In this document: one piece after another, positions 4,533 through 55,407 of the stretch
How positions within the stretch are numbered: position 1 is the stretch's first letter
How the letters are laid out: the number at the start of each line of letters is the position of its first letter
Program-made: the position numbers and the translations under genes
Notes under the pieces: generated by a model
Database searches by the model: none
What the model was told of the DNA's origin: nothing
The model's input: only the letters and a program-made list of their open reading frames with translations
Source: Chthoniobacterales bacterium
GTDB taxonomy: Bacteria; Verrucomicrobiota; Verrucomicrobiia; Chthoniobacterales; UBA10450
Direction of reading: 5' to 3'
Assembly: GCA_013821455.1 (NCBI GenBank)
Contig: JACDGS010000006.1
Location: 62,001 to 126,000, forward strand
Length of the DNA: 64,000 nucleotides

Positions 4533-4645
4533 AAAAAGCTCGTTGCGGGTGGGAAAGCGAATAGCGAGGCTTTCCTAAGTTCGCGCCGCTGGCAACGCAG
4601 GAGTGAGATGCGAGCCTACTCCAGGTTATAACCGACTTACTTTTG

Positions 4646-7600
4646 ATGCTTCCTACTTCCACGAAAAGCAAATGGAGCATGATGGTTATGCTCCTTGGAC
4701 TTACCCTGATCTCTACTCTTGATGGTGGAGATATCCTCCGCGGCGGCGCTACCATGGGCGCGGCCCCATCGGCTAACCAGACCGGAGGAACTGCCGCGAC
4801 ACTTACTCCACATACCACGACCAGTGGCACCGATGCGCTCGCCCGGACGGCGCAGGCTTTACAAGCTGTCCAGGCAATGCAGACCGCAGCACAGCAAACC
4901 GCCATCCGGGGTGCTAATAACCTCGGAATCGATCCTAATCACCCAGGGTTACAGTTACCCAACGTGCCGAACGGTCTTGCGCTCGGCGGATTGCAGGTGG
5001 CGCCCGGTGTCCCGGCCAACCTCGCGGCGCCAAAGGCGAATGAAGACCCGACGCTTTGGGTAGGAGCGAAGCTTCCGACGCAAAGCACTCATACCGGAAC
5101 TACCAACGTTTCCATCAAACAAACCAGCCAGCAGGCGCTGTTGAATTGGGAGACCTTCAACATCGGTAAGAACACCAAGTTAACATTCGATCAAAGTGCC
5201 GGAGGCGCTAATAAGAGTGAGTGGATTGCCTTTAACACAATTACAGATCCTACCGGCCGGCCCTCACAAATCTTGGGCTCAATCGACGCCGCCGGTCAGG
5301 TCTATGTCTTAAACCAAAACGGCATCATCTTTGGTGGCTCCTCTCAGGTAAATCTCCACACGCTGGTAGCTTCTTCGCTGCCTATAAATACCAACCTTCT
5401 TGTACGCGGATTGCTCAATAATCCGGACGAACAATTTCTCTTCTCCGCACTACCTATCCCAGTGCTGCCGAATGGTGGCAGCCTGCCTGCCTTTACGCCA
5501 CCTGCTCCGCCCAATACACCTAGCGGCCTCGTCGGTGACGTAACTGTGCAAGCCGGGGCGCTTCTTTCCAGTCCTACCACTCCCGACCACGTCGGTGGAC
5601 GCATAGCCCTGGTAGGACTAAACACGACAAATAACGGCATCATCTCGACCCCGGACGGGCAAACTATTCTGGCGGCGGGCCAACAGGTAGCCATGTCCGC
5701 GCATTCGAGTACAGATCCTAGCCTGCGTGGGCTGGATACCTTTGTCGGCGCGATCGGGCCTTACGGAAGTGTGGCTACGAATAATGGTTTGATCGACGCG
5801 CCACGTGCCGATGTCACGCTTACGGGAGGAGAAGTGGATCAGAACGGATTCATTAATAGCTCTACTTCCGTCGCTTTAAATGGCCGCGTCGATCTCCTGG
5901 CTAACTATAACTCGGTCCCTTCCATTCCACCCGGAGTGAATCCGGTGGTCGTGCTGACACCTTCCGCCTCGGGCCTAGTCTCGTTAGGCGCAGGAAGTGT
6001 GACTGCTATCCTACCGGAGCTTTCCAGCACAGATCGGGTGGTGGGAACAGCGTTAGCGCTCCCTTCGCAACTCAACCTCCAGGGAAAGGCGATCCACCTG
6101 GGTGAAGACGCTTCCATTCTGGCGCCTAACGCCAATGTCTCAGTGAGCGCTGGGAGCTGGCTGCCGGTCAATCCTAGTTACGCCTTCTTTGCCACAGACG
6201 GTCAGATCTATCTCGACTCGGGCGCATCGATTGACGTTTCGGGTTCCGTAGGAGTCGATGCCTCAGTGAGTGAAAACTTCATTACCGCGGACCTGCGCGG
6301 CGCAGAGCTGGCCAACTTCCCCACGCAGCGCAATGGTCCGCTTCGCGGTCAGACAGTGACTATCGATATTCGTAAGACTGGGACCTATAACGGACAGCCT
6401 TTCGTCGGGACACCTTTGGCCGACTTATCCGGCTTTGTCGCGCTGGTGCAGCGGACTGTAGGCGAGCTAACTGTAGCCGGCGGGCATGTTAGTCTTACTG
6501 CGGGAGGGTCTGTCATCCTGCAGCCTGGCGCGACCGTTAATGTCTCAGGCGGATCGATCAACTATTCAGGTGCGGACGTGCAGACGACCAAGGTTATCTC
6601 GGATGGCCGCATCTTCGATATCTCCCAAGCGACGCCGGATCGTATCTATCAGGGCATCTATACCGGCTCAACGGAAGCTCATCCTAAGTGGGGCATCTTC
6701 CAGACGACAACTAACCAGCTGGTCAACGGCTCGCAATTCGAACCCGGTTACACTCAGGGTGGGAATGGTGGGACGCTATCCATCTCCGCTGCGAGCATGG
6801 CCCTCGATGGCACTCTTCTCGGAGCCACTATCGTCGGGCCAAGGCAGCGAGATATGCCCCCGGTGCTGGGGTCGGTCTCACTGGCTTTCCAAGCCAATCT
6901 TCCTTCTCTCTCCTATCCGCTGATTTCGCCTAATCCTCCGGATATAGTTATCCGCAACGGTGGACAGCTCGCGGCTGCGGACGCTTTTGCGCTGGATGAA
7001 AATGGGTTGCCGTTACCTTTGCGCGACGATCGCAAAGCGAAGGCCTTTCTCTCGCCTGACTTATTCACGACTGGAGGGTTTGGCAGTCTTTCGGTAACGA
7101 ACAGTGATGGTAATATCACCTTACCGGCAAACGTTACCATTGTAGCTCCGACCGGCGGCGCGATCATGCTCTCGGCCGCTAACCTCGACCTCGAAGGACA
7201 TATCACCGCGCCGGGCGGCAACCTGGCTTTCAATGTCTTCGAGTTCTCGCCCTACCAATTCAACATCGCAGTGAATATAAGTCCGGGTCTGCTCACAGCG
7301 GTTCCACCGCCGGATAGGACACGCGGTAACTTTACTCTCGGCGCGCATGCTTCACTTAACGTCGATGGTTTGATTGCCGACGATAGGTCGGGAATCTTTT
7401 CGCCCGTTACATTCCCACTCATAACTAACGGTGGCTCTGTTACGATCAAGAGTTACAGCGTGGACCTGCAACCCGGCAGCGTGATCGATGCTTCCGGTGG
7501 GGTGGAGGTGAATGCGGCTAACTCTCCCACTTATGGCCACGGCGGTGCTATTTCGATCCAGGCCGGTCAGGATTTGGATATTGCAGCGCTTCTGGGTGGC

Positions 7601-10600
7601 ACGCTCGACTTAGGCGCGACTTTGAGTGCCTACGGCGGAGGTAACCTCGGCGGCTCGCTGAGTATCCTCGCTCCCGCCGTGCAGATAGGCGGGAAAACGA
7701 GTGATAAAAACACACTCTCACTTACCCCGAGTTTCTTTAATCACGGAGGCTTCGGCAGTTTCACTTTTACGGGACTAGGTTCGCCCACAGATACCCCCGA
7801 TACGTACCTCCCGGCGGTAACTATCGCGCCGGGCACCAGGATTCAGCCTGTGGCGCTAAGTCAGTTTGTTGATCCCACTCTCACCCTGGCGAGCGATCTT
7901 GTCCTAACTCAAAACTTGTTGCCGCAGGCGTTGCGCACGCCAGTAAGTCTGGCGTTCAAAGCGCCCGGAGTAACCGATATCTTTACCAGTGGCACATTAG
8001 TGGTACGAGGCGATTTCGTCATGGGCGCGGGAGCGTCGATCGTAACTGATCCCGGAGCGACCGTCTCGATCAGTGCAAACACCGCCGATGTCTTGGGAAC
8101 GATTACTGTGCCTGCGGGCGCGATTAGTGTGACAGGCGGTGCTAACTCCAGTGCTCTTTTCCTCACTGACACGGGGGAAGCTCTTCCTACTCTTGCCCTC
8201 GGTTCCAGGAGTATCCTTTCCGTTGCCGGCACGACTCTTCTTACCCCCGATCCGTTCGGATTTCGGACGGGCTCGGTGCTTCCCGGCGGAAGCATTTCGT
8301 TGTCGGGAAATATCGTGGCCGAAGCGGGCTCGGTGCTCGATGTCTCCGGGACGAGTGACTCATTGGACGTCGCTCCTGGTTTCGTCGGTGTCCCACTCGC
8401 GATTGATCCTACTGCCGCACCTGTCGTCCGGACTACGATCGAGAGTGATGGTGGTTCGATCACTCTCAATGGTCAGCAAGAACTCTTTAGTGACGCGACC
8501 CTACTCGGCGCTGCGGGCGGCCCATCTGCTATGGGTGGTTCCCTGACCGTCTCTTCAGGTCGCTTCGTGGCGCCTTTGGCGGAGCAACCTTTGACGCCGC
8601 TCGATGTGACTTTGCAGGTCACACAAAAAGGTCCTACCATTCCCGCTGCCTCTTACTCCAGTGGTGATCCCGTCATTGGACATCCTGTGGTGGATACAAC
8701 TGGCGCGTCGTTACCCGGCCTAGGATATTTCGCGGTCGCTGATTTCAACTCTAGCGGATTGGCTTCACTGACTCTCGCCGGCACGGTGAGCTTTGTCGGT
8801 CCTGTCACTGTGACTGGACATGGACGAGTGACTGTTGGGACCTCGGGAGTTATCTACGCAGACGCGCCGGTGCACTTGGACGCACCTTCTGTCGCGCTCG
8901 GTCAGGCGTTCCTACCACCTGTGCCGCCTGAGTTACAAACCAGTCCTTTCCTGGTCAATCAACAACCATTCTTCTTCTCGCCGAGTTACGGGACTGGCCG
9001 GCTGAATGTCTCAGCCAGCATGATTGATGTAGGAAACCTATCCTTGCAGGACATAGGAACGGCTAACCTGGTCGCGACGAATGGAGATATCCGTGGCGAT
9101 GGTACCCTAGATGTGGCCGGGCATATCTCACTAACCGCGGGTCAAATCTATCCGCCGACGGAAGTAACCTTCAACATAGCGGCGTTTGATTACGCAGACG
9201 ATACCGGCGCGCTGCAAAGCGGTTCGGTGACTATCCTACCCTCGGGAAACCGCCAGTTGCCTCTCTCCGCTGGCGGGATTTTGAATATCTTCGCGACCAA
9301 CATTACTCAGGGCGGCGTCTTGCGCGCACCTATCGGGACAATCAATGTAGGAAGCAGCGGCTTCTCCAATGCCATGGTCGATCCGCTCTCGAATCTGCCT
9401 TTCGCTTCAACCGATCGTCTTACGGTTACTCCGACGAGTGTTATCTCGGTTTCGGCAGTCGATCCTCTAACGGGAACTAGTCTTATCATCCCTTATGGCA
9501 CTAACCAGAATGGAACCTCCTGGATCGATCCCGCAGGGATAGACATTACGGCCGGCGGCGTTCCGGGTAAGACAGTAACTCTTACCGCGACGACGGTGAT
9601 AGATGAAACGGCCGCCACGGTAGATATCCGCGGCGGCGGCGACCTTTTCGCTTACCAGTTCATCACTGGTCTTGGTGGCACGGTGGATATTCTTGGTTCG
9701 CCTGCCAGCTTCGCCATCGTGCCAAATTACGGACAGAGTTATGCGCCATTCGATCCTGGATACTCTAATAGCGCCCTCGCCGTGGGAGACAGCGTCTATC
9801 TAAGTGCGAGCAATGTCCTGCCTGCTGGCACTTATACTTTGCTTCCAGCTCGCTACGCCTTGCTTCCGGGCGCAGTTCTCGTTACTCCAGAAGCTACTCT
9901 TCCGAATGGCACGACTCCGCAGCTCGATGGTTCGACTTTGGTTTCGGGCTATCGCTTTAATGCCTTTACCGGTCAGCCCGTGAGTCAGCCCTTGCTATCT
10001 ACTTTCGAGTTAGCTTCGCAAGCGGTGATAAACTCCCGCGCCCAGTATCAGATATATTCTGCTAACTCGTTCCTGAAGGACGGCGCCCTGGCTAACAATG
10101 CGGCCGTTCCGCGTCTGCCCATCGACGCAGGTCAGTTAGTCCTGGCTGCTACTGGTGCGATCAGCGTTCGCGGGAATGTCATGGCGATGGCTCCTCCCGG
10201 CGGTCTCGGGGGTTTGGTCGATATCGCCACACCGGACGATATACTTATCGCTGGTGGTGGAGCCGTGGCGCCGATAGGAACTCTTCTCCTCGATCCGGCA
10301 GAGCTTAGCTCCTTTGCCGCCGAAAGCCTGTTGATCGGTGGCCTGCGCTCCAACACGATCGACGGAACGTTGGTAACCGTTTCGACGGATAACATCGTCA
10401 TCAACAACGCGGGCGACCCACTTAGCGGATCGGGTATCACTCTCGTCGCGAACGATAGTATTACTCTGACGAAAGGCTCCGTCGTCGAGCAATCTCCCGG
10501 GACGAGCGCGACTGCAGATACTTTGCTCTTCGGAAACGATGCTACGCCTGGGAGCGGTAACGGAGTGTTGCTGCGAATCAGTAGCGATCCGTCGGCTGCC

Positions 10601-13600
10601 ATCCTCCGCCGAGGTGTCGATGCTTCTTCGGCTCCGGCTTTAAACATAGGCGCGAACGTAACGATAAGTGGGAACAGTGTCATCCTCGATTCGACCTCTG
10701 CGACCTCGCTTGATCCGACCGTTTCCTTACAAGGTAACTCGATTGCATTAGATAGCGGCCAGATAAGTCTGCAACTGGATAACCCGGGAACGCTTCAACC
10801 AACCACAGGCCTTATCCTCTCCGGGTTAGCCTTACGCACCTTGCAACAAAGTGCTACTTCAGTCTCACTCTTAAGTTACTCATCTCTGGATGTGTATGGA
10901 ACCGGCGAGGTAGGCTCGTCGGAGATAGCAAACCTCTCCCTGCACGCGGGTGAAATTCGCGGCTTCAATCACAATGACGGCACGGTTACCTTTGCCGCGC
11001 AAAACATTTTCCTGGATAACACTGCCAACGGCCGCTCGCTAGGAGGTCTCGACGCAACTCGCGGGTCGCTCGTCTTCGCGGCGGACACTCTTCAACTTGG
11101 TGGCGGTACGATTGCCTTGGACCAGTTCGCGGGCACCACTTTCATCGCGAATAAAGGGATCATCTTCCAAGGCGCCGGAGGTATTGATGCTCAGGGTAGT
11201 GTTAACGTAGTCACTCCTTTGCTCACAGGAGAAACTGCTGCCACTTATAACCTGTCGGCGGCCGGTATTCTAACGGTGGATCGACCTGCCAACGCCTTAC
11301 CGCCAACTGTGCAAGGCGGCCTCGGCGCGAGTTTAACTCTAACTGGTGAGAGCGTGACCGAGAATAGCAACATCGTTCTGCCTAGTGGCACTCTCACCAT
11401 CCAAGCCAGCGGCGCTTTGCCGGGAAGCGATCTCACGGTCGGAGGTCTTCTCGACGTTTCAGGAACCGCGCAGCACTTTTACGACCTCACTAAGTTTACC
11501 GATGGCGGCGCGATCAAGCTCACTGCGACGAACGGCGACATTCTACTCAATGCCGCCAGCCTGATAACAGTCGCAGCGCAGTCGGATGGTGGAAATGCCG
11601 GAAGTCTCACAATCTCTTCCCCTAACGGTTCCATAGTTACCAAGGGTTCTCTTCATGGTGCCGGCGGGGCTGGCGGTATCTTCAATCTCGACATAGGAAG
11701 CCTGCCCCGGACAGCGGCGCTCGATACCTTGCTTAATAGCGGCGGGTTTACCCAAGCGCGTAATATCCGCGTCCGCACCGGCGACATCCTGGTCGATGGC
11801 GACTCATCAGCCCGAGCCATTTATCTCTCGGCCGACCAGGGTTCCATCACAGTTACGGGAACAATCGACGCCTATTCTAACAACGGTGGAACCATAGGAC
11901 TCTTCGCGAACGCTAATGTAACTCTCGCGAGTGGCGCGGAGCTCAACGCGGCCGGCCTTACGCCCGACGCCGGTGGTAAGTCAGGCCTGGTCGATCTCGA
12001 AACCCGCGGCGCGAACGGTGGTCAGATTAATATTCAGGCGGGGTCGGTGATCAACTTGTCGTTAGGTACAGGACCCGGTGGGACACTGCACTTACGCGCG
12101 CCGCAGAATGCAGGCTCGACTGACCTCGCGGTCGCGCCGATTGCAGGTCAAATCCTTAACCCGCAAAGTATCGTGCTGGAAGCTTATCGTATCTTCGATG
12201 CCAGTGCCGATGGCTCCATTGATAACCAGGAGCCGGCAGTCCTGGGCAATGAGATTGCGATCAGTAACAGTGCCGCGGCTATCGCTACCCGGGTCCTCGG
12301 CACGAATGGTTTTCTGGCGCCGGTGTTGCACGTCCGGCCGGGGGCGGAGATTGTCAACGCAAACGGCGACCTAACGTTGAATAGTGACTGGGACTTATCG
12401 ACCTATCGCGGGGGCGAACGCAAGGCGGTGGTGGATCAACTGGGTCAGCCCCTTTTCGACCAATCCGGTAACCCGATTATGATCGGAGTAGAGCCTGGTA
12501 TTCTAACTCTGCGCGCGAAAGGCTCGATCACTTTCAACGGCGCTCTGACTGATGGCTTTGGCGATAGCCTTGGCACGGTGCCTTTCGATGTTCTCGGAAA
12601 TGTCGCTCGCTGGACTTCTCCTTTACTCCCTGTGTTTGCCGATGGCACTCCGCAACAATCCTGGAGTTATCGAATCACCGCTGGCGCGGATTTCCAGGCT
12701 GCTAACTACCGAGCTACAGCTGCACCGGCTTTCAATAGTCCCGCCGGCTCTCTCGACCTCGGAGTCTTCGGCGGTGAGATTGCCTTTAATCCCTCGGGCT
12801 CGCAATTCGATGCGGTCACTAGCGAAGCACTCGTGGGTCACTACCAGGTCATTCGCACTGGAACTGGAGATATCGTTATTTCGGTTAGTGGTGATGTGAG
12901 ATTGCAAAACCAGTTTGCTACGATCTATACGGCCGGGGCTCAGGTGAGTGACGCCACGCTGGGAGGGCGTTTCGACTTGCCGCGACTCGATGCTACCGGC
13001 GGCGAGACGATTTTGGGAGCGATCCAGGAGAGTCCTCCTTATCCGGCCCAATACAGTTCGGGCGGCGGTAACGTAGTGATCGATGCCGGCGTTGACATTC
13101 TTCACCTCGGCCAGGATAGCAACGGTAACATCATTCCTGACTCGGAGCGTCAACTTCCAAATAACTGGCTTTATCGTCGCGGTTATATCGATCCGGCGAC
13201 GGGAGGATTTGGCGTAGCTCACTTAGGCGACATAGCATCGACTACCTGGTGGGTGGATTTCAGCAACTTCTTTGAAGGAGTCGGCGCCCTCGGAGGTGGA
13301 AATGTAGCTCTAAGTGCCGGACACGATGTGCAAAACGTGGACGCCGTTGTTCCAACTAACTCGCGTCAACCGAAAGACACCCCGGATTCTGGTCAACTCA
13401 TAGAGTTAGGCGGCGGTAACCTGACGGTGCACGCGGGTCATGATATAGACGGAGGCGTCTATTACGTGGAGCGCGGCCAGGGCGAGCTAAGTGCCGGGAA
13501 TAGCATTCATACCAACAGCACCCGCTCACCTTCTCTCATCACACTTACCGGCGAAGCTCCGCTCCCCGAGCAGACATGGCTGCCGACAACCCTCTTCCTG

Positions 13601-15856
13601 GGCAAAGGCAGCTTTTCTGTGCAAGCGAAGGCCGACCTGACTCTGGGGCCGGTGGCTAATACGTTTCTCCTGCCAGGTGGTTATAGTAACACTTATTGGT
13701 ATAAGACTTACTTCTCTACTTATGCTGAGACCGATGCGGTAGATGTTTCTTCGCTGACGGGCACTGTAACTCTGCGCGAAAGCGCTACCTTGCCGGGTAA
13801 GATTTCGCCCGATCCATTGCTTCTCTCCTGGGAGCGCGATGTCCTGCTCCTTTCGCAGACGACGCCGACCGCGGCTTTTTATCAGCCATGGCTCCGGTTG
13901 GATGAAACGGATGTTACAGCCTTTGCCACAGTCACAGCTCTCCAACCTGGAACGTTGCGCGCTACCTCGTTCTCGGGTGACCTGAACTTTGTTGGTCAGT
14001 TACTCTTATCGCCTTCCGCGAGCGGCACGATTGATTTGGCCGCCGCCGGGTCCATTAATGGTTTGCAACAAAGCGGTGTCTTAAATGCAGGCGACGCGGC
14101 CACGCAGGTAAGTGCCTTTAACTCCGGCTTGATCAACCTGTCGGATGCTGACCCATCTTCCATCCCGGGAGCAGAGTCGCCCTTTGCTTTACAAACCATC
14201 GGTGGCCTCAATCCCGCCGCCTTGCTGACCAGCCCTGCGCACGTTCTGGACTTTGTCGATAAGTTATTTCTGGAGTCTGGTTCAATCGCAGGGGCGCAGG
14301 CTGTCCTGCAAACGAAACAGGCTTTGCACGCGCCGGGAGTGCTACACGCTTCCGACCCTAATCCTATCCATCTCTATTCTAACACTGGAGATATCTCTGG
14401 CTTCACTCTTTTCTCCGGAAAGGCAGCCAGGATCGCGGCGGGTCAGGATCTGACTGATGTGTCCCTGTATGTGCAGAACGCTAACTCCTCGGCTATCACG
14501 GTGATCGCGGCGGGCCGCGATATTATCGCGTACGATCCTAACTCACCTCTCCGCAGCGCGGCGCTGGCGTTGGGGAGTTTTCTCGATGTTCCGGGTGCTC
14601 CGCAGGCGGGAGATATTCAGATCAGCGGGCCAGGTGCGCTGGAAATTCTAGCCGGGCGAAATCTCGATCTAGGCATAGGTGCGCCCAACGTGGATGGGAC
14701 CGGAGTAGGAGTTACTTCAATCGGAAATGCGCGCAATCCCTACCTGCCATTTGCGGGCGCGCAAATCGTAGCGGGTGCAGGGCTCGGCGCGGCGAGCAGC
14801 CTGGCGCAAAGTCAGTTGGACTTTAGCAGTTTCAATAATCTCTTCCTTAATCCCGCAACCGCGGCTGACTCAGGAGCGCGATATTTGCCACAAATCGCCA
14901 GTTTCCTCGGGACGCCGAGTAGTAGCGATGCGGAGACCTGGAGTTACTTTACTCAACTTCCGGTAGAAGAGCAGGATTTACTTGCGTTGAAAGTCTTCTA
15001 TCTCGTCCTGCGTGACGCGGCGCGCGATCGCACGGTTCCGACTAGCGCGGGCTTTGGCACTTATGATGCCGGCTTTGCGGCGATTGCTGCGCTCTTTCCG
15101 GATTCGGCAGCTACGGGCAACATCCTTCTGCCTTCAAAGGAGATTAAGACTGCCAGCGGCGGTGATATAAATCTCTTCTCGCCGAGTGGCGGGCTAACTG
15201 TAGGATTGGCTAGTGGAACTCCGGCCGCCGACCAGGGTCTCCTGACGGAAGATGGCGGTAACATAAATATCTTCACCAACAATAGTGTCGCGGTAGGAAC
15301 TTCGCGTATCTTTACCCTGCGTGGTGGGAATGAGATCATCTTTTCCAGTGTCGGTGACATAGCCGCCGGCGCCTCCTCTAAGACAGTGCAATCGGCGCCT
15401 CCTACTCGAGTCCTGATCGATCCGCAGAGCGGTGATGTGAAGACCGACCTGGCGGGACTGGCGACCGGGGGTGGCATAGGGGTTCTTGATACTGTCGCAG
15501 GCGTGCCGCCGGGAGATGTCGATCTTATCGCGCCCGCGGGAACGGTGGACGCGGGCGACGCGGGTATTCGTGTCACTGGCAACCTGAGTATCTCAGCGGT
15601 GCAGGTTTTGAATGCTGGAAATATTTCTGTAGGTGGGACGAGTGCGGGAGTTCCTACGATAGCTACTCCTAACCTGGCTGGTCTAAGTGCTGCGTCTAAT
15701 GCCAGCGCGGCTACGACAAATGCGGCTGAGACGACGGCGAGACAGGCAGTAGCTCAACCAGCGCAGGACGTGCTTCCTTCCATCGTTACCGTCGAAGTGC
15801 TGGGTTATGGCGACGGTAGCGATGACGAAGATCTTAGGCGCCGGAAGAGGGGTTAG
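4646..15856 (+). CDS. Giant filamentous haemagglutinin-type exoprotein (TpsA), TPS domain and DUF3739-like C terminus
   Basis: About 3736 residues; ATG at 4646, with an adjacent in-frame TTG at 4643. After a signal-like segment (LGLTLISTLDGGDIL) and a Gln/Thr-rich linker, residues about 135-255 form a two-partner secretion domain: QQALLNWETFNIGK, VYVLNQNGIIFGGSSQ, VNLHTLVASSLPI. Then come about 3000 residues of beta-helix-like repeats rich in G, S, T, V, N and D. The C-terminal part (from about residue 3440: LALKVFYLVLRDAARD, SRIFTLRGGNEIIFSS, RVLIDPQSGDVKTDLAGLA, GDVDLIAPAGTVDAGDAG) matches the DUF3739 module of filamentous haemagglutinins; the end is Arg/Lys-rich. No TpsB/FhaC transporter is visible in the window. 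It would be a surface or released fibre. Its codon use (many TTA, CTA, AGT) differs from the housekeeping half of the window. Confidence 0.9.
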   Translation: MLPTSTKSKWSMMVMLLGLTLISTLDGGDILRGGATMGAAPSANQTGGTAATLTPHTTTSGTDALARTAQALQAVQAMQTAAQQTAIRGANNLGIDPNHPGLQLPNVPNGLALGGLQVAPGVPANLAAPKANEDPTLWVGAKLPTQSTHTGTTNVSIKQTSQQALLNWETFNIGKNTKLTFDQSAGGANKSEWIAFNTITDPTGRPSQILGSIDAAGQVYVLNQNGIIFGGSSQVNLHTLVASSLPINTNLLVRGLLNNPDEQFLFSALPIPVLPNGGSLPAFTPPAPPNTPSGLVGDVTVQAGALLSSPTTPDHVGGRIALVGLNTTNNGIISTPDGQTILAAGQQVAMSAHSSTDPSLRGLDTFVGAIGPYGSVATNNGLIDAPRADVTLTGGEVDQNGFINSSTSVALNGRVDLLANYNSVPSIPPGVNPVVVLTPSASGLVSLGAGSVTAILPELSSTDRVVGTALALPSQLNLQGKAIHLGEDASILAPNANVSVSAGSWLPVNPSYAFFATDGQIYLDSGASIDVSGSVGVDASVSENFITADLRGAELANFPTQRNGPLRGQTVTIDIRKTGTYNGQPFVGTPLADLSGFVALVQRTVGELTVAGGHVSLTAGGSVILQPGATVNVSGGSINYSGADVQTTKVISDGRIFDISQATPDRIYQGIYTGSTEAHPKWGIFQTTTNQLVNGSQFEPGYTQGGNGGTLSISAASMALDGTLLGATIVGPRQRDMPPVLGSVSLAFQANLPSLSYPLISPNPPDIVIRNGGQLAAADAFALDENGLPLPLRDDRKAKAFLSPDLFTTGGFGSLSVTNSDGNITLPANVTIVAPTGGAIMLSAANLDLEGHITAPGGNLAFNVFEFSPYQFNIAVNISPGLLTAVPPPDRTRGNFTLGAHASLNVDGLIADDRSGIFSPVTFPLITNGGSVTIKSYSVDLQPGSVIDASGGVEVNAANSPTYGHGGAISIQAGQDLDIAALLGGTLDLGATLSAYGGGNLGGSLSILAPAVQIGGKTSDKNTLSLTPSFFNHGGFGSFTFTGLGSPTDTPDTYLPAVTIAPGTRIQPVALSQFVDPTLTLASDLVLTQNLLPQALRTPVSLAFKAPGVTDIFTSGTLVVRGDFVMGAGASIVTDPGATVSISANTADVLGTITVPAGAISVTGGANSSALFLTDTGEALPTLALGSRSILSVAGTTLLTPDPFGFRTGSVLPGGSISLSGNIVAEAGSVLDVSGTSDSLDVAPGFVGVPLAIDPTAAPVVRTTIESDGGSITLNGQQELFSDATLLGAAGGPSAMGGSLTVSSGRFVAPLAEQPLTPLDVTLQVTQKGPTIPAASYSSGDPVIGHPVVDTTGASLPGLGYFAVADFNSSGLASLTLAGTVSFVGPVTVTGHGRVTVGTSGVIYADAPVHLDAPSVALGQAFLPPVPPELQTSPFLVNQQPFFFSPSYGTGRLNVSASMIDVGNLSLQDIGTANLVATNGDIRGDGTLDVAGHISLTAGQIYPPTEVTFNIAAFDYADDTGALQSGSVTILPSGNRQLPLSAGGILNIFATNITQGGVLRAPIGTINVGSSGFSNAMVDPLSNLPFASTDRLTVTPTSVISVSAVDPLTGTSLIIPYGTNQNGTSWIDPAGIDITAGGVPGKTVTLTATTVIDETAATVDIRGGGDLFAYQFITGLGGTVDILGSPASFAIVPNYGQSYAPFDPGYSNSALAVGDSVYLSASNVLPAGTYTLLPARYALLPGAVLVTPEATLPNGTTPQLDGSTLVSGYRFNAFTGQPVSQPLLSTFELASQAVINSRAQYQIYSANSFLKDGALANNAAVPRLPIDAGQLVLAATGAISVRGNVMAMAPPGGLGGLVDIATPDDILIAGGGAVAPIGTLLLDPAELSSFAAESLLIGGLRSNTIDGTLVTVSTDNIVINNAGDPLSGSGITLVANDSITLTKGSVVEQSPGTSATADTLLFGNDATPGSGNGVLLRISSDPSAAILRRGVDASSAPALNIGANVTISGNSVILDSTSATSLDPTVSLQGNSIALDSGQISLQLDNPGTLQPTTGLILSGLALRTLQQSATSVSLLSYSSLDVYGTGEVGSSEIANLSLHAGEIRGFNHNDGTVTFAAQNIFLDNTANGRSLGGLDATRGSLVFAADTLQLGGGTIALDQFAGTTFIANKGIIFQGAGGIDAQGSVNVVTPLLTGETAATYNLSAAGILTVDRPANALPPTVQGGLGASLTLTGESVTENSNIVLPSGTLTIQASGALPGSDLTVGGLLDVSGTAQHFYDLTKFTDGGAIKLTATNGDILLNAASLITVAAQSDGGNAGSLTISSPNGSIVTKGSLHGAGGAGGIFNLDIGSLPRTAALDTLLNSGGFTQARNIRVRTGDILVDGDSSARAIYLSADQGSITVTGTIDAYSNNGGTIGLFANANVTLASGAELNAAGLTPDAGGKSGLVDLETRGANGGQINIQAGSVINLSLGTGPGGTLHLRAPQNAGSTDLAVAPIAGQILNPQSIVLEAYRIFDASADGSIDNQEPAVLGNEIAISNSAAAIATRVLGTNGFLAPVLHVRPGAEIVNANGDLTLNSDWDLSTYRGGERKAVVDQLGQPLFDQSGNPIMIGVEPGILTLRAKGSITFNGALTDGFGDSLGTVPFDVLGNVARWTSPLLPVFADGTPQQSWSYRITAGADFQAANYRATAAPAFNSPAGSLDLGVFGGEIAFNPSGSQFDAVTSEALVGHYQVIRTGTGDIVISVSGDVRLQNQFATIYTAGAQVSDATLGGRFDLPRLDATGGETILGAIQESPPYPAQYSSGGGNVVIDAGVDILHLGQDSNGNIIPDSERQLPNNWLYRRGYIDPATGGFGVAHLGDIASTTWWVDFSNFFEGVGALGGGNVALSAGHDVQNVDAVVPTNSRQPKDTPDSGQLIELGGGNLTVHAGHDIDGGVYYVERGQGELSAGNSIHTNSTRSPSLITLTGEAPLPEQTWLPTTLFLGKGSFSVQAKADLTLGPVANTFLLPGGYSNTYWYKTYFSTYAETDAVDVSSLTGTVTLRESATLPGKISPDPLLLSWERDVLLLSQTTPTAAFYQPWLRLDETDVTAFATVTALQPGTLRATSFSGDLNFVGQLLLSPSASGTIDLAAAGSINGLQQSGVLNAGDAATQVSAFNSGLINLSDADPSSIPGAESPFALQTIGGLNPAALLTSPAHVLDFVDKLFLESGSIAGAQAVLQTKQALHAPGVLHASDPNPIHLYSNTGDISGFTLFSGKAARIAAGQDLTDVSLYVQNANSSAITVIAAGRDIIAYDPNSPLRSAALALGSFLDVPGAPQAGDIQISGPGALEILAGRNLDLGIGAPNVDGTGVGVTSIGNARNPYLPFAGAQIVAGAGLGAASSLAQSQLDFSSFNNLFLNPATAADSGARYLPQIASFLGTPSSSDAETWSYFTQLPVEEQDLLALKVFYLVLRDAARDRTVPTSAGFGTYDAGFAAIAALFPDSAATGNILLPSKEIKTASGGDINLFSPSGGLTVGLASGTPAADQGLLTEDGGNINIFTNNSVAVGTSRIFTLRGGNEIIFSSVGDIAAGASSKTVQSAPPTRVLIDPQSGDVKTDLAGLATGGGIGVLDTVAGVPPGDVDLIAPAGTVDAGDAGIRVTGNLSISAVQVLNAGNISVGGTSAGVPTIATPNLAGLSAASNASAATTNAAETTARQAVAQPAQDVLPSIVTVEVLGYGDGSDDEDLRRRKRG

Positions 15857-52263: not shown

Positions 52264-53952
52264 ATGAGTTCGATTTGGGATCAGGCTAACCCGCACCTGC
52301 GCGACCTCGCGCTCTACGAGCCGGGCAAGCCAATCGAGGAAACCGCGCGGGAGTCCGGTTTGCGGCCGGAGCAAATCATCAAGCTGGCCTCAAACGAAAA
52401 CCCGCTCGGCCCGTCCCCGCACGCGGTCGAGGCGATGCAGCGGGCCCTGACTCACGCTAATTTTTATCCCGATGGCGGCAGCTTTTATCTGCGCGACGCG
52501 CTCGCGCACAAGCTCGGACTCACCCGCGAAAACATCATTCTCGGGAACGGCTCGAACGAGATCATCGAGTTTATCGGCCACGCTTTTTTGCGGTCTGGGG
52601 TGGAAATGGTCACCTCGGAGAACGCCTTCATCGCTTACAAATTGATCGCTGCGCTTTTCGCCGCCACCACGGTGGCAGTGCCCGATCGCGAGTTTCGTTT
52701 CGACCTCGACGCCGTCCTCGCCGCGATCACCCCGCGCACCCGCGTTGTCTTTATCGCCAACCCAAACAACCCCACCGGCACACTCGTTAGGCAGGAAGCG
52801 CTCGACCGTTTCATGGAGCAGGTGCGTCACGACGTCGTGGTCGTTTTCGACGAAGCCTACTTCGAATATCTGGACGAGCCGCCCGACACGCTTCGATTCG
52901 TTAGGCAAGGTCGCAACGTGATTGTGCTCCGGACGTTTTCCAAAATCCACGGCCTCGCCAACCTCCGCCTCGGCTACGGCATGGCTCATCCAGAGATGAT
53001 CAGGGTCCTGCAAAAAACCCGCGAGCCGTTCAACATCAACGGACTCGTGCAGGCCGGCGCGCTCGCCAGTCTGGCGGACGAAAAACATCAGGCCGCGACC
53101 AAACGGACGACTGACGAAGGCCGCAAATATTTGGAGAGCGAACTCGCAGCGATGAAGCTGCCGTTCGTGCCGAGCGTGGCGAATTTTGTCCTCGTTCGAG
53201 TGGGCGACGGCCACGCGGTTTTCCGGGCGATGCTGCAGAAGGGCGTCATCGTGCGCGCTCTGAAAGGCTACAAACTACCGGAGTGGATCCGCATTTCCAT
53301 CGGGACGATGGAGCAGAATCGCCAGTGCATCGCTTCGCTGCGCGAGGTTGTAGCGTCCGCTGTCCCAGCGGATTCAGCTGAATTGCAGGTAGAGGATGGA
53401 GCGGCGCGTGATGATGGCGGGCCCTTATGCGCTGAGGACAGCGCACGCTACAGCGCGCGCCGGATGAAGAAAAAACCGCCGCGGTTGGAACGGCTCTTTA
53501 CCAATGAACCTCTTTTTTTCGTTACCTTTAATACGCACGGGCGTCGTCCGCTTCTCGCGGATGGCTCCCTGCACGAGACTTTCGTCGCTTATGCCCAGGG
53601 TGCGAGTGAGCACGGTATCGGCGTCGGCCGCTACGTTCTCATGCCGGACCACATCCATCTTTTCATCAGTTTTGGACGCGACGCGACGGCGGATTTGGGA
53701 ACATGGGTAAAAGGTCTGAAGCGTGCTTTGGAGAAGACACTGCTCGCGGCGGGAGAGAAGCCGGTCGCCTTGGACAAGCAGACTCTCAGCTCATTTTGGC
53801 AGCCGGGATTTCATGATCACATTTTGCGGAGCGACGAGAGCTACGCGCAGAAATGGGAATATGTGCGGGAGAATCCGGTGCGGGTGGGACTGGTGAACGC
53901 TGCCGCGGACTGGCCCTACGCCGGAGAGATCGTGTCCATTGATCGTGTTTGA
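52264..53952 (+). CDS. hisC: Histidinol-phosphate aminotransferase read through into a RAYT transposase
   Basis: 562 codons in one frame from ATG 52264. Residues 1-365 are a full HisC: LASNENPLGPSP, ILGNGSNEIIEF, FIANPNNPTGTL, VVFDEAYFEY, PLP Lys227 in TFSKIHGLANLRLGYG, and RISIGTMEQNRQCIASLREV at the normal end. No stop follows; instead a REP element (53349-53452) is translated as VASAVPADSA...CAEDSARYSARR and joins in frame to a complete REP-associated transposase (from Met 53464). HisC transaminates imidazole-acetol phosphate in histidine synthesis. The fusion may yield a tagged HisC, or translation may restart at 53464. The frame also extends upstream of 52264 but without family support. 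Two 9-mer copies inside. Confidence 0.85.
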   Translation: MSSIWDQANPHLRDLALYEPGKPIEETARESGLRPEQIIKLASNENPLGPSPHAVEAMQRALTHANFYPDGGSFYLRDALAHKLGLTRENIILGNGSNEIIEFIGHAFLRSGVEMVTSENAFIAYKLIAALFAATTVAVPDREFRFDLDAVLAAITPRTRVVFIANPNNPTGTLVRQEALDRFMEQVRHDVVVVFDEAYFEYLDEPPDTLRFVRQGRNVIVLRTFSKIHGLANLRLGYGMAHPEMIRVLQKTREPFNINGLVQAGALASLADEKHQAATKRTTDEGRKYLESELAAMKLPFVPSVANFVLVRVGDGHAVFRAMLQKGVIVRALKGYKLPEWIRISIGTMEQNRQCIASLREVVASAVPADSAELQVEDGAARDDGGPLCAEDSARYSARRMKKKPPRLERLFTNEPLFFVTFNTHGRRPLLADGSLHETFVAYAQGASEHGIGVGRYVLMPDHIHLFISFGRDATADLGTWVKGLKRALEKTLLAAGEKPVALDKQTLSSFWQPGFHDHILRSDESYAQKWEYVRENPVRVGLVNAAADWPYAGEIVSIDRV

Positions 53953-54034
53953 GCCCGCTGTAGCGTCCGCTGTCCCAGCGGATGAGGCGCGGCCCGAGGC
54001 ACGGGGAAATGCGCTGAGGACAGCGCACACTACA
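53349..54034 (+). mobile_element. REP-RAYT unit: transposase gene between two REP palindromes
   Basis: REP 1 has arms 53349-53372 (TGTAGCGTCCGCTGTCCCAG...) and 53428-53452; REP 2 has arms 53959-53982 (identical 24 bases to REP 1) and 54010-54034. Each arm starts or ends with the GTAG/CTAC foot. The transposase lies between. The unit sits directly between the hisC coding end and mnmE. Confidence 0.85.
53464..53952 (+). CDS. REP-associated tyrosine transposase (RAYT, Y1/TnpA_REP family)
   Basis: 162 residues from Met 53464 if translated alone: KKKPPRLERLF, FFVTFNTHGRRPLL, the HUH nickase motif in YVLMPDHIHLFISFG, the region WVKGLKRALEKTL, SFWQPGFHDHILRSDESY, and the catalytic-tyrosine helix KWEYVRENPVRVGLV. 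All are hallmarks of RAYTs, which process REP sequences as single-stranded DNA at GTAG-footed hairpins. All catalytic residues seem intact. It is in frame with hisC upstream, with no intervening stop. Confidence 0.92.
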   Translation: MKKKPPRLERLFTNEPLFFVTFNTHGRRPLLADGSLHETFVAYAQGASEHGIGVGRYVLMPDHIHLFISFGRDATADLGTWVKGLKRALEKTLLAAGEKPVALDKQTLSSFWQPGFHDHILRSDESYAQKWEYVRENPVRVGLVNAAADWPYAGEIVSIDRV

Positions 54035-54060
54035 GCGCCAGTGCGAAGGTTGCGTTGAAG

Positions 54061-55407
54061 ATGAGCGAACGTTTTCCAGACACCATCGCTGCCGTCTCCA
54101 CGCCGCCCGGCGAAGGCGCCATCGCACTCGTTAGGCTGGCGGGGCCGGAAGCCATCGCCATTGCCGGTCGCATCTTCCGCGGAAAGAAGACGCCTAACGA
54201 AATCCCGTCGCACACGCAGCACTTCGGCGAAATCTTCGAGGACGAGCGCGTGCTCGATCAGGTGATGCTCTCGGTTCATCGCGCACCGGCCAGTTACACC
54301 GGCGAGGATGTGGTGGAAATTAGCTGTCATGGCGGCGTCCTCGTGACCGCACGCGTTTGGGAAGCCTGCCTCCGCGCGGGCGCGCGCGCGGCGCGTGGCG
54401 GTGAGTTCACCGAACGCGCTTTCCTCAACGGCAAACTCGATCTCACCCAGGCCGAAGCGGTGATCGATTTGATCCGCGCGCAGACCGATCTCGCGCTCCG
54501 CTCCGCGAACGAACAGCTCGCAGGTCGGCTCGGGGAACGCATCACCCAACTGCGCGCCGACCTCATCGCGCTGGTGGCCAACCTCGAGGCTTACATCGAT
54601 TTCCCCGACGAAGACATCGCGCCCGATGTGGGCGATGCGTTCCGCGCCCGCCTCGCCGGGATTCGCGAAAAGATCGAAGCGCTCCTCGCGACCGCGGACC
54701 AGGGCCGGATTTTTCGCGAGGGCGTGCGGGTGGTGATTTACGGCCCGACCAATGCCGGCAAATCGAGCCTGCTCAATCGGCTCCTTGGCTTTCCGCGCGC
54801 GATCGTTAGTCCAACGCCGGGCACGACCCGCGACACGATCGAGGAAGTGGTGAACCTGCGCGGCGTCGCCCTGCGCCTGACCGATACGGCCGGGCTGCGC
54901 GCGAGCACTGACGCCGTTGAACAAGAAGGAATGGCGCGCACCGAACGCTCGCTCGAGAATGCCGATCTCGTTCTGCACCTCGCCGATGCGAGCGAGGCGA
55001 GGCCGGAAAATTTCGCGGCGAAGGATGGAGAACGCGCGGAGTTGCTCCTGCTCAACAAGTCCGATCTAGCGGAACATGCGGATTGGAAAGAGTGCGACGC
55101 GCTGCGGATTTCCTGCACGGCGGAGAATGGTCTCGCGGGTTTGGAGGAGAAGATTTTGGCGCGCGTTGGAGCGCAGTCGTGGGACGGTCCGAGCGCGGTC
55201 GCGATCAACTTGCGTCATCGCGATTGCCTGCGCCGCGCGCTCGAGGCGTGCGATCGCGCGCAGGCGGCGGTGGGGCAAAATCTCCCGTCGGAACTGATCG
55301 CGGTCGATCTGCGTGACGCACTCCAGGCCGTGGGCGAAGTCGTCGGGCAGGCCGGAACGGAGGACATTCTGGATTCGCTCTTCGCTACTTTCTGCATCGG
55401 CAAATGA
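54061..55407 (+). CDS. mnmE: tRNA modification GTPase MnmE (TrmE)
   Basis: 448 residues from ATG 54061 (TTG 54055 is possible but weaker). N-terminal tetrahydrofolate-binding domain (DTIAAVSTPPGEGAIALVRLAG split), helical domain, inserted G domain with G1 GPTNAGKSSLLN, G2/G3 TPGTTRDT and DTAGLR, G4 NKSD, and the essential C-terminal FCIGK. With MnmG it installs the cmnm5 group on wobble U34. Its original promoter is displaced by the REP-RAYT unit 27 bp upstream. Overlaps pyrD by 4 bp (ATGA). Two 9-mer copies (LVR, PNE) lie 64 bp apart near the N terminus. Confidence 0.95.
   Translation: MSERFPDTIAAVSTPPGEGAIALVRLAGPEAIAIAGRIFRGKKTPNEIPSHTQHFGEIFEDERVLDQVMLSVHRAPASYTGEDVVEISCHGGVLVTARVWEACLRAGARAARGGEFTERAFLNGKLDLTQAEAVIDLIRAQTDLALRSANEQLAGRLGERITQLRADLIALVANLEAYIDFPDEDIAPDVGDAFRARLAGIREKIEALLATADQGRIFREGVRVVIYGPTNAGKSSLLNRLLGFPRAIVSPTPGTTRDTIEEVVNLRGVALRLTDTAGLRASTDAVEQEGMARTERSLENADLVLHLADASEARPENFAAKDGERAELLLLNKSDLAEHADWKECDALRISCTAENGLAGLEEKILARVGAQSWDGPSAVAINLRHRDCLRRALEACDRAQAAVGQNLPSELIAVDLRDALQAVGEVVGQAGTEDILDSLFATFCIGK

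Follow-up and report, generated by a model that had tools for sequence, protein, structure and literature searches.

How did an aminotransferase gene, hisC, come to run without a stop codon through a REP palindrome into a transposase, and does the joined protein have a role of its own? In the 64,000-nucleotide stretch of Chthoniobacterales DNA analyzed here (hereafter, the window), which belongs to the MAG of an uncultured soil bacterium (G000; 4.3 Mb, 97% complete, 117 contigs), a single stop-free frame of 562 codons at 52264-53952 comprises a complete HisC, a translated pair of GTAG REPs (BIME), and an intact RAYT (Table 1). The sequence-only reading of this locus had described the HisC domain as complete to its normal end, the REP as translated with its GTAG out of frame, and the transposase as intact, and our analyses agreed. 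The TIGR01141 match covers the HisC domain, the GTAG of the upstream REP is read as GTT GTA GCG in the hisC frame, translation meets no stop from HisC to the end of RAYT, and the RAYT is intact, with an NF047646 match above the cut-off and its HUH motif and tyrosine retained. The HisC start ATG is the same as in relatives. The frame is already stop-free from 51847, and coding signal is absent from there up to this ATG. Another part of the window, 4606-15856 on the + strand, is one uninterrupted frame of 3750 codons.

Table 1 Features of the hisC-RAYT locus (positions in the window) and of the REP-bearing and transposase-bearing genes compared with it (locus, genome, and contig handles).
Feature	Position	Strand	Remark
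hisC, HisC domain complete to its usual end	52264-53346	+	TIGR01141, residues 10-362; catalytic and PLP residues invariant
Translated linker, 39 codons, contains the upstream BIME	53347-53463	+	sole stop-free frame of the three
REP, upstream BIME	53349-53373	+	GTAG at 53350-53353
Inverted REP, upstream BIME	53427-53456	-	
RAYT, own ATG and TGA	53464-53952	+	NF047646; HUH motif DHIHLF; tyrosine in WEYVRENP
REP, downstream BIME	53959-53983	+	
Inverted REP, downstream BIME	54009-54038	-	
mnmE, next gene	54061-55407	+	hisC-mnmE order seen in most relatives
Gene stop formed by the TAG of a REP's GTAG	L090:2930, L092:2944, L121:2996 (G000); L312:2991 (G003)		
BIME inside TGT	L098:2975-3034 (G000:C13:57375-57433)		
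REP inside aconitase	L104:2994-3010 (G000:C67:92394-92409)		
BIME inside MetH of G003	L302:3022-3083		
RecG with embedded Y1	L328 (G000:C13:27100-27576); L330, L334-L336, L339, L343, L346, L347, L371, L374		
MetH with embedded Y1	L119:5886-9287 (G000:C56:72085-75487); L087, L360, L365		other linker: L351, L363, L373
AlaRS with embedded Y1	L356, L366, L367, L368, L376, L377		
ThrRS with embedded Y1	L355, L372		
LeuRS with embedded Y1	L369, L370		
CarB with embedded Y1	L358, L359, L361		

To see what preceded this arrangement, we turned to the nearest relative (G003, HisC 81% identical), in which pnp, an iscS-like gene, hisC, mnmE, and pyrD are found in the same order. A BIME lies exactly at the hisC end of G003, without a RAYT, and hisC terminates there as ATG TTG TAG, the TAG being part of the GTAG of the REP. 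G000 has two fewer bases before the REP than G003, placing the GTAG out of phase with hisC. This comparison with a RAYT-lacking relative supports the earlier claim that hisC has lost its stop codon. In the hisC-mnmE interval of the window, the G003 flanks align on the side of hisC as well as on that of mnmE, and the mnmE side of the G003 BIME aligns with that of the downstream BIME. G003 was considered as the empty site and rejected, as it retains one BIME. The RAYT with a BIME was either gained in G000 or lost in G003 by recombination between two BIMEs; the 36 REPs of G003, in which no RAYT is detectable, are compatible with such a loss and do not prove it. In most relatives, HisC ends a few residues past the motif ALREVL, with mnmE following. 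The hisC-RAYT fusion is known from one MAG, being absent from the other 82 of 83 family genomes and likewise unique among 98 relatives. Candidate fusions past the HisC end in G054, G055, G059, and others turned out to be either unrelated repeats or stretches that follow a normal stop.

The aminotransferase itself is conserved. HisC scored 335 bits against the TIGR01141 equivalog model (cut-off 277), and K227, D196, Y199, R331, and R343 are invariant across 34 aligned sequences. Between G000 and G003, dN is 0.107 and dS is 0.77 (dN/dS about 0.14) with no acceleration in G000, values indicating that HisC is under purifying selection. No other aminotransferase of the assembly, two matches having been checked in part, reaches the HisC cut-off and could act as a spare. 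The retained catalytic residues, the purifying selection, and the status as sole HisC together suggest that the enzyme probably functions despite a tail of 200 residues.

The transposase is conserved as well. RAYT matched the NF047646 equivalog at 96.3 bits (cut-off 80) over residues 408-552 of the joined protein and retains MPDHIHLF and KWEYVRENP, as does its homologue in G002 (68% identical). Its homologues start at the position of its own ATG. BIMEs flank RAYT on both sides, and the same REP has 75 copies in G000, versus 2 for a reversed control pattern. A REPtron (BIME-RAYT-BIME) fills the short hisC-mnmE gap. A promoter scan found none, and the search for RAYT homologues in viral contigs yielded two short 40% matches only.

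REPs at gene ends and within genes were found elsewhere in these genomes. Three of the 75 G000 REPs provide the exact stop of a gene (LytTR-type response regulator, GNAT acetyltransferase, and AP endonuclease IV-like protein, named by eye), and one G003 gene besides hisC stops on a REP TAG. Leucine is the last residue (YTG TAG) in the three REP-stopped genes of G000 and in G003 hisC. At 3 of the 13 family RAYT loci checked, the upstream gene stops on the outer REP end (TAG in two, TAA in one). GTAG REPs have been reported (PMC3733652) to often supply the stop of neighboring genes, and the hisC of the window is a case in which this arrangement has failed.

REPs are also translated within proteins. 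In G000, a whole BIME is read in frame inside tRNA-guanine transglycosylase (TGT), which still matches TIGR00430 above the cut-off, and a REP is translated as SAETADAT inside aconitase. The same TGT loop holds palindromic inserts other than this BIME in G001, G002, G003, G004, and G010, and the same aconitase loop of G007 holds a BIME of another REP family. Since relatives have no insert or quite different ones in these loops, the REP sites there are insertions. The MetH of G003 contains a translated BIME in a linker that holds a transposase in other genomes. ORF starts over-extended into REPs (L088, L114, and L117) were left out of the intragenic count. Intragenic GTAG REPs are known, above all from the verrucomicrobium O. 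terrae (PMC3733652). With REPs translated inside TGT, aconitase, and MetH, continued translation through a REP into further protein is not foreign to this lineage.

The linker between the two domains was evaluated by codon usage, chance expectation, and RNA and protein models. Its codon score was about 0 per codon, compared with 0.23 for hisC and 0.13 for RAYT, a value obtained from one linker sequence. In the AlphaFold model of the fusion, the HisC part was confidently predicted and the linker was predicted to be disordered (pLDDT < 50), while the RAYT part was unreliable due to the lack of aligned homologues. The RNA of the linker folds into a BIME hairpin of -67 kcal/mol (z -4.2), which may lower the yield. 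In 24 BIMEs of G000, stops are missing from 69 of the 144 single frames; with a one-in-three probability for the phase, the chance of an in-frame join to RAYT after stop loss is about 1/3 x 0.48 = 0.16, or approximately one in six. The open linker is therefore unremarkable, and the loss of the stop is the real event. Nothing in this single linker sequence suggests selection on it as protein.

We consider it most likely, with a probability of roughly 0.7, that the locus is a REPtron at the hisC end whose REP ceased to serve as the stop, a modest reading in which the join is a tolerated accident. The upstream REP overlaps the hisC 3' end, and the original last hisC codons and stop would have been lost. 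With two fewer bases before the REP, the GTAG falls out of frame, and ribosomes would read on into the BIME; this happens to be stop-free in the hisC frame, and RAYT, in the same frame, would be read as well. Transcription of hisC would then be expected to give two products, a 562-residue HisC-RAYT, presumably tolerated as a C-terminal extension of the enzyme, and free RAYT, likely made in addition from its own ATG. The fusion would have no function of its own. The second option of the sequence-only reading, transposase expression placed under the hisC promoter and an internal start, would fit this picture.

The sequence-only reading had also raised a domesticated aminotransferase-transposase fusion. 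Such a bifunctional protein might be selected, for example, for tethering the transposase or setting its dose. Both domains are intact and in frame, and purifying selection preserves related Y1 transposases of this order within the RecG frame (see below), so fusions can be stable. Against this, the fusion occurs in one genome of all those compared, its linker lacks codon bias and is modelled as disordered, and RAYT retains a start, shared with its homologues, and a stop; we thus regard domestication as very improbable. The join could instead be an artifact, with the true hisC terminating on the TAG of the REP, like its G003 counterpart, and this stop masked in the MAG by a small indel. Two bases separate both states and a single MAG is involved, yet a two-base indel outside a homopolymer would be an unusual short-read error, the locus sits 13 kb inside a 129-kb contig, and the repeats flanking RAYT are only 25-30 nt long, making a base or assembly error unlikely.

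In E. coli, REPs close to stop codons stop ribosomes. The join might accordingly be silent in the cell, with the BIME hairpin halting ribosomes or leading to their rescue, HisC trimmed, and RAYT produced only from its own ATG. The very stable hairpin spanning the linker and the start of RAYT homologues at this ATG are consistent with such a scenario, as is work cited in PMC12306157, according to which ribosomes stall at REPs lying no more than 15 nt from a stop. However, REPs are certainly read through in the TGT and aconitase of G000, as those enzymes would otherwise be lost, and we find a silent join quite unlikely.

The locus resembles known REPtrons in having a single RAYT between inverted GTAG REP pairs with cognate REPs scattered over the genome, and differs in that the upstream BIME and RAYT share one frame with the upstream gene. 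It also resembles the GTAG REPs of PMC3733652, whose ends act as stops and which have translated counterparts here in enzymes (TGT, aconitase, and MetH), whereas at hisC the REP is no longer a stop and links an enzyme to a transposase. A REP joining an enzyme to a transposase is absent among the cases in that text, and none was found elsewhere in the literature searched. Rickettsia palindromic elements are similarly tolerated in frame within housekeeping proteins, though they are unrelated in sequence and join no transposase to a host protein. REP population models take it that a gene is destroyed when a copy inserts into it (PMC8049555). As the REPs here serve as stop codons, protein linkers, and, at hisC, a bridge to a transposase, the cost of landing in genes would be lower than assumed.

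The hisC RAYT is not the only transposase of this order to be read together with a core enzyme. In-frame Y1 transposases that have no stop codon were found inside RecG, MetH, AlaRS, ThrRS, CarB, and LeuRS. Of the eight Y1_Tnp matches in G000 that exceed the Pfam cut-off, four lie in the same frame as a core enzyme (MetH, RecG, CarB, and HisC), and weak RAYT-like matches of G000 fall in very long frames, including those of MetH and RecG. When the RecG-embedded domain was used as a query, matches were obtained in 106 of 137 relatives, and the frames containing the strong matches were mostly 700-1600 codons long. In 387 genomes sampled evenly across the phylum, each of the ten matches at E <= 1e-20 fell in a frame of at least 730 codons. 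The best host model was above its curated cut-off (Pfam, NCBIfam) in 7/7 examples, with Y1_Tnp inside in 5/7. The embedded domain of the CarB and ThrRS examples was recognized by its similarity to the others and by its HUH motif. Many embedded Y1 transposases are bounded by near-perfect terminal inverted repeats, which are translated too (48-63 nt for the best examples in AlaRS and ThrRS). The CarB (G000) and LeuRS cases checked belong to a more divergent Y1 group, and no such terminal repeats were found in them.

In RecG, the Y1 domain lies within the helicase core at one site shared by over 20 genomes of this order, taking the place of a short loop that connects residues 454 and 462 in the solved structure (1gm5). 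Its dN/dS of about 0.03-0.13, similar to the 0.04-0.11 of the host RecG, indicates that the embedded domain evolves under purifying selection. Some copies are without a catalytic residue although their frame is open. The G003 copy (L329) has DLMH in place of DHxH, so the catalytic His is lost and the frame is still open, as would be predicted for a host that requires frame and fold but not catalysis.

The nearest described kind for the RecG, MetH, AlaRS, and ThrRS elements is TIRYT (PMC3733652), also a Y1 HUH transposase between terminal inverted repeats; unlike TIRYTs, the embedded elements have no stop codon and are located within host frames, a situation not so described in the literature searched. 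Unexpectedly long Y1 proteins were set aside as gene fusions or annotation errors in PMC6006769, and a description of embedded Y1 transposases was not found in the literature that we searched, the coverage of which was partial. In-frame carriage in RecG, MetH, AlaRS, ThrRS, CarB, and LeuRS would be a persistence route for a mobile element, for which we found no paper.

The transposases in the three other core enzymes of G000 look far less accidental than the hisC join. The hisC RAYT differs from the embedded TIRYT-like elements in having its own ATG and TGA, REPs instead of terminal inverted repeats, and no hisC sequence after it. What is common to both is a lineage whose frames tolerate Y1 elements. 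By analogy with inteins, though without splicing, Y1 transposases of this order might live inside the frames of indispensable genes, with hisC-RAYT as a recent C-terminal case and the fusion as an active form of the transposase, a tentative idea that we consider doubtful. If true, the host could not drop the transposase without risk to an essential protein, and the transposase would be expressed within a host protein.

MetH carries Y1 transposases at two alternative interdomain linkers. In G000, a whole Y1 transposase separates the B12-binding domain from the activation domain without breaking the frame, and the second linker contains a repeat pair only, with a TGA and, three bases later, an ATG, so that MetH is split into two frames there. 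One MetH frame of another genome (L360, G008:C150) appears to hold two Y1 transposases (matches 3-320 and 2262-2720).
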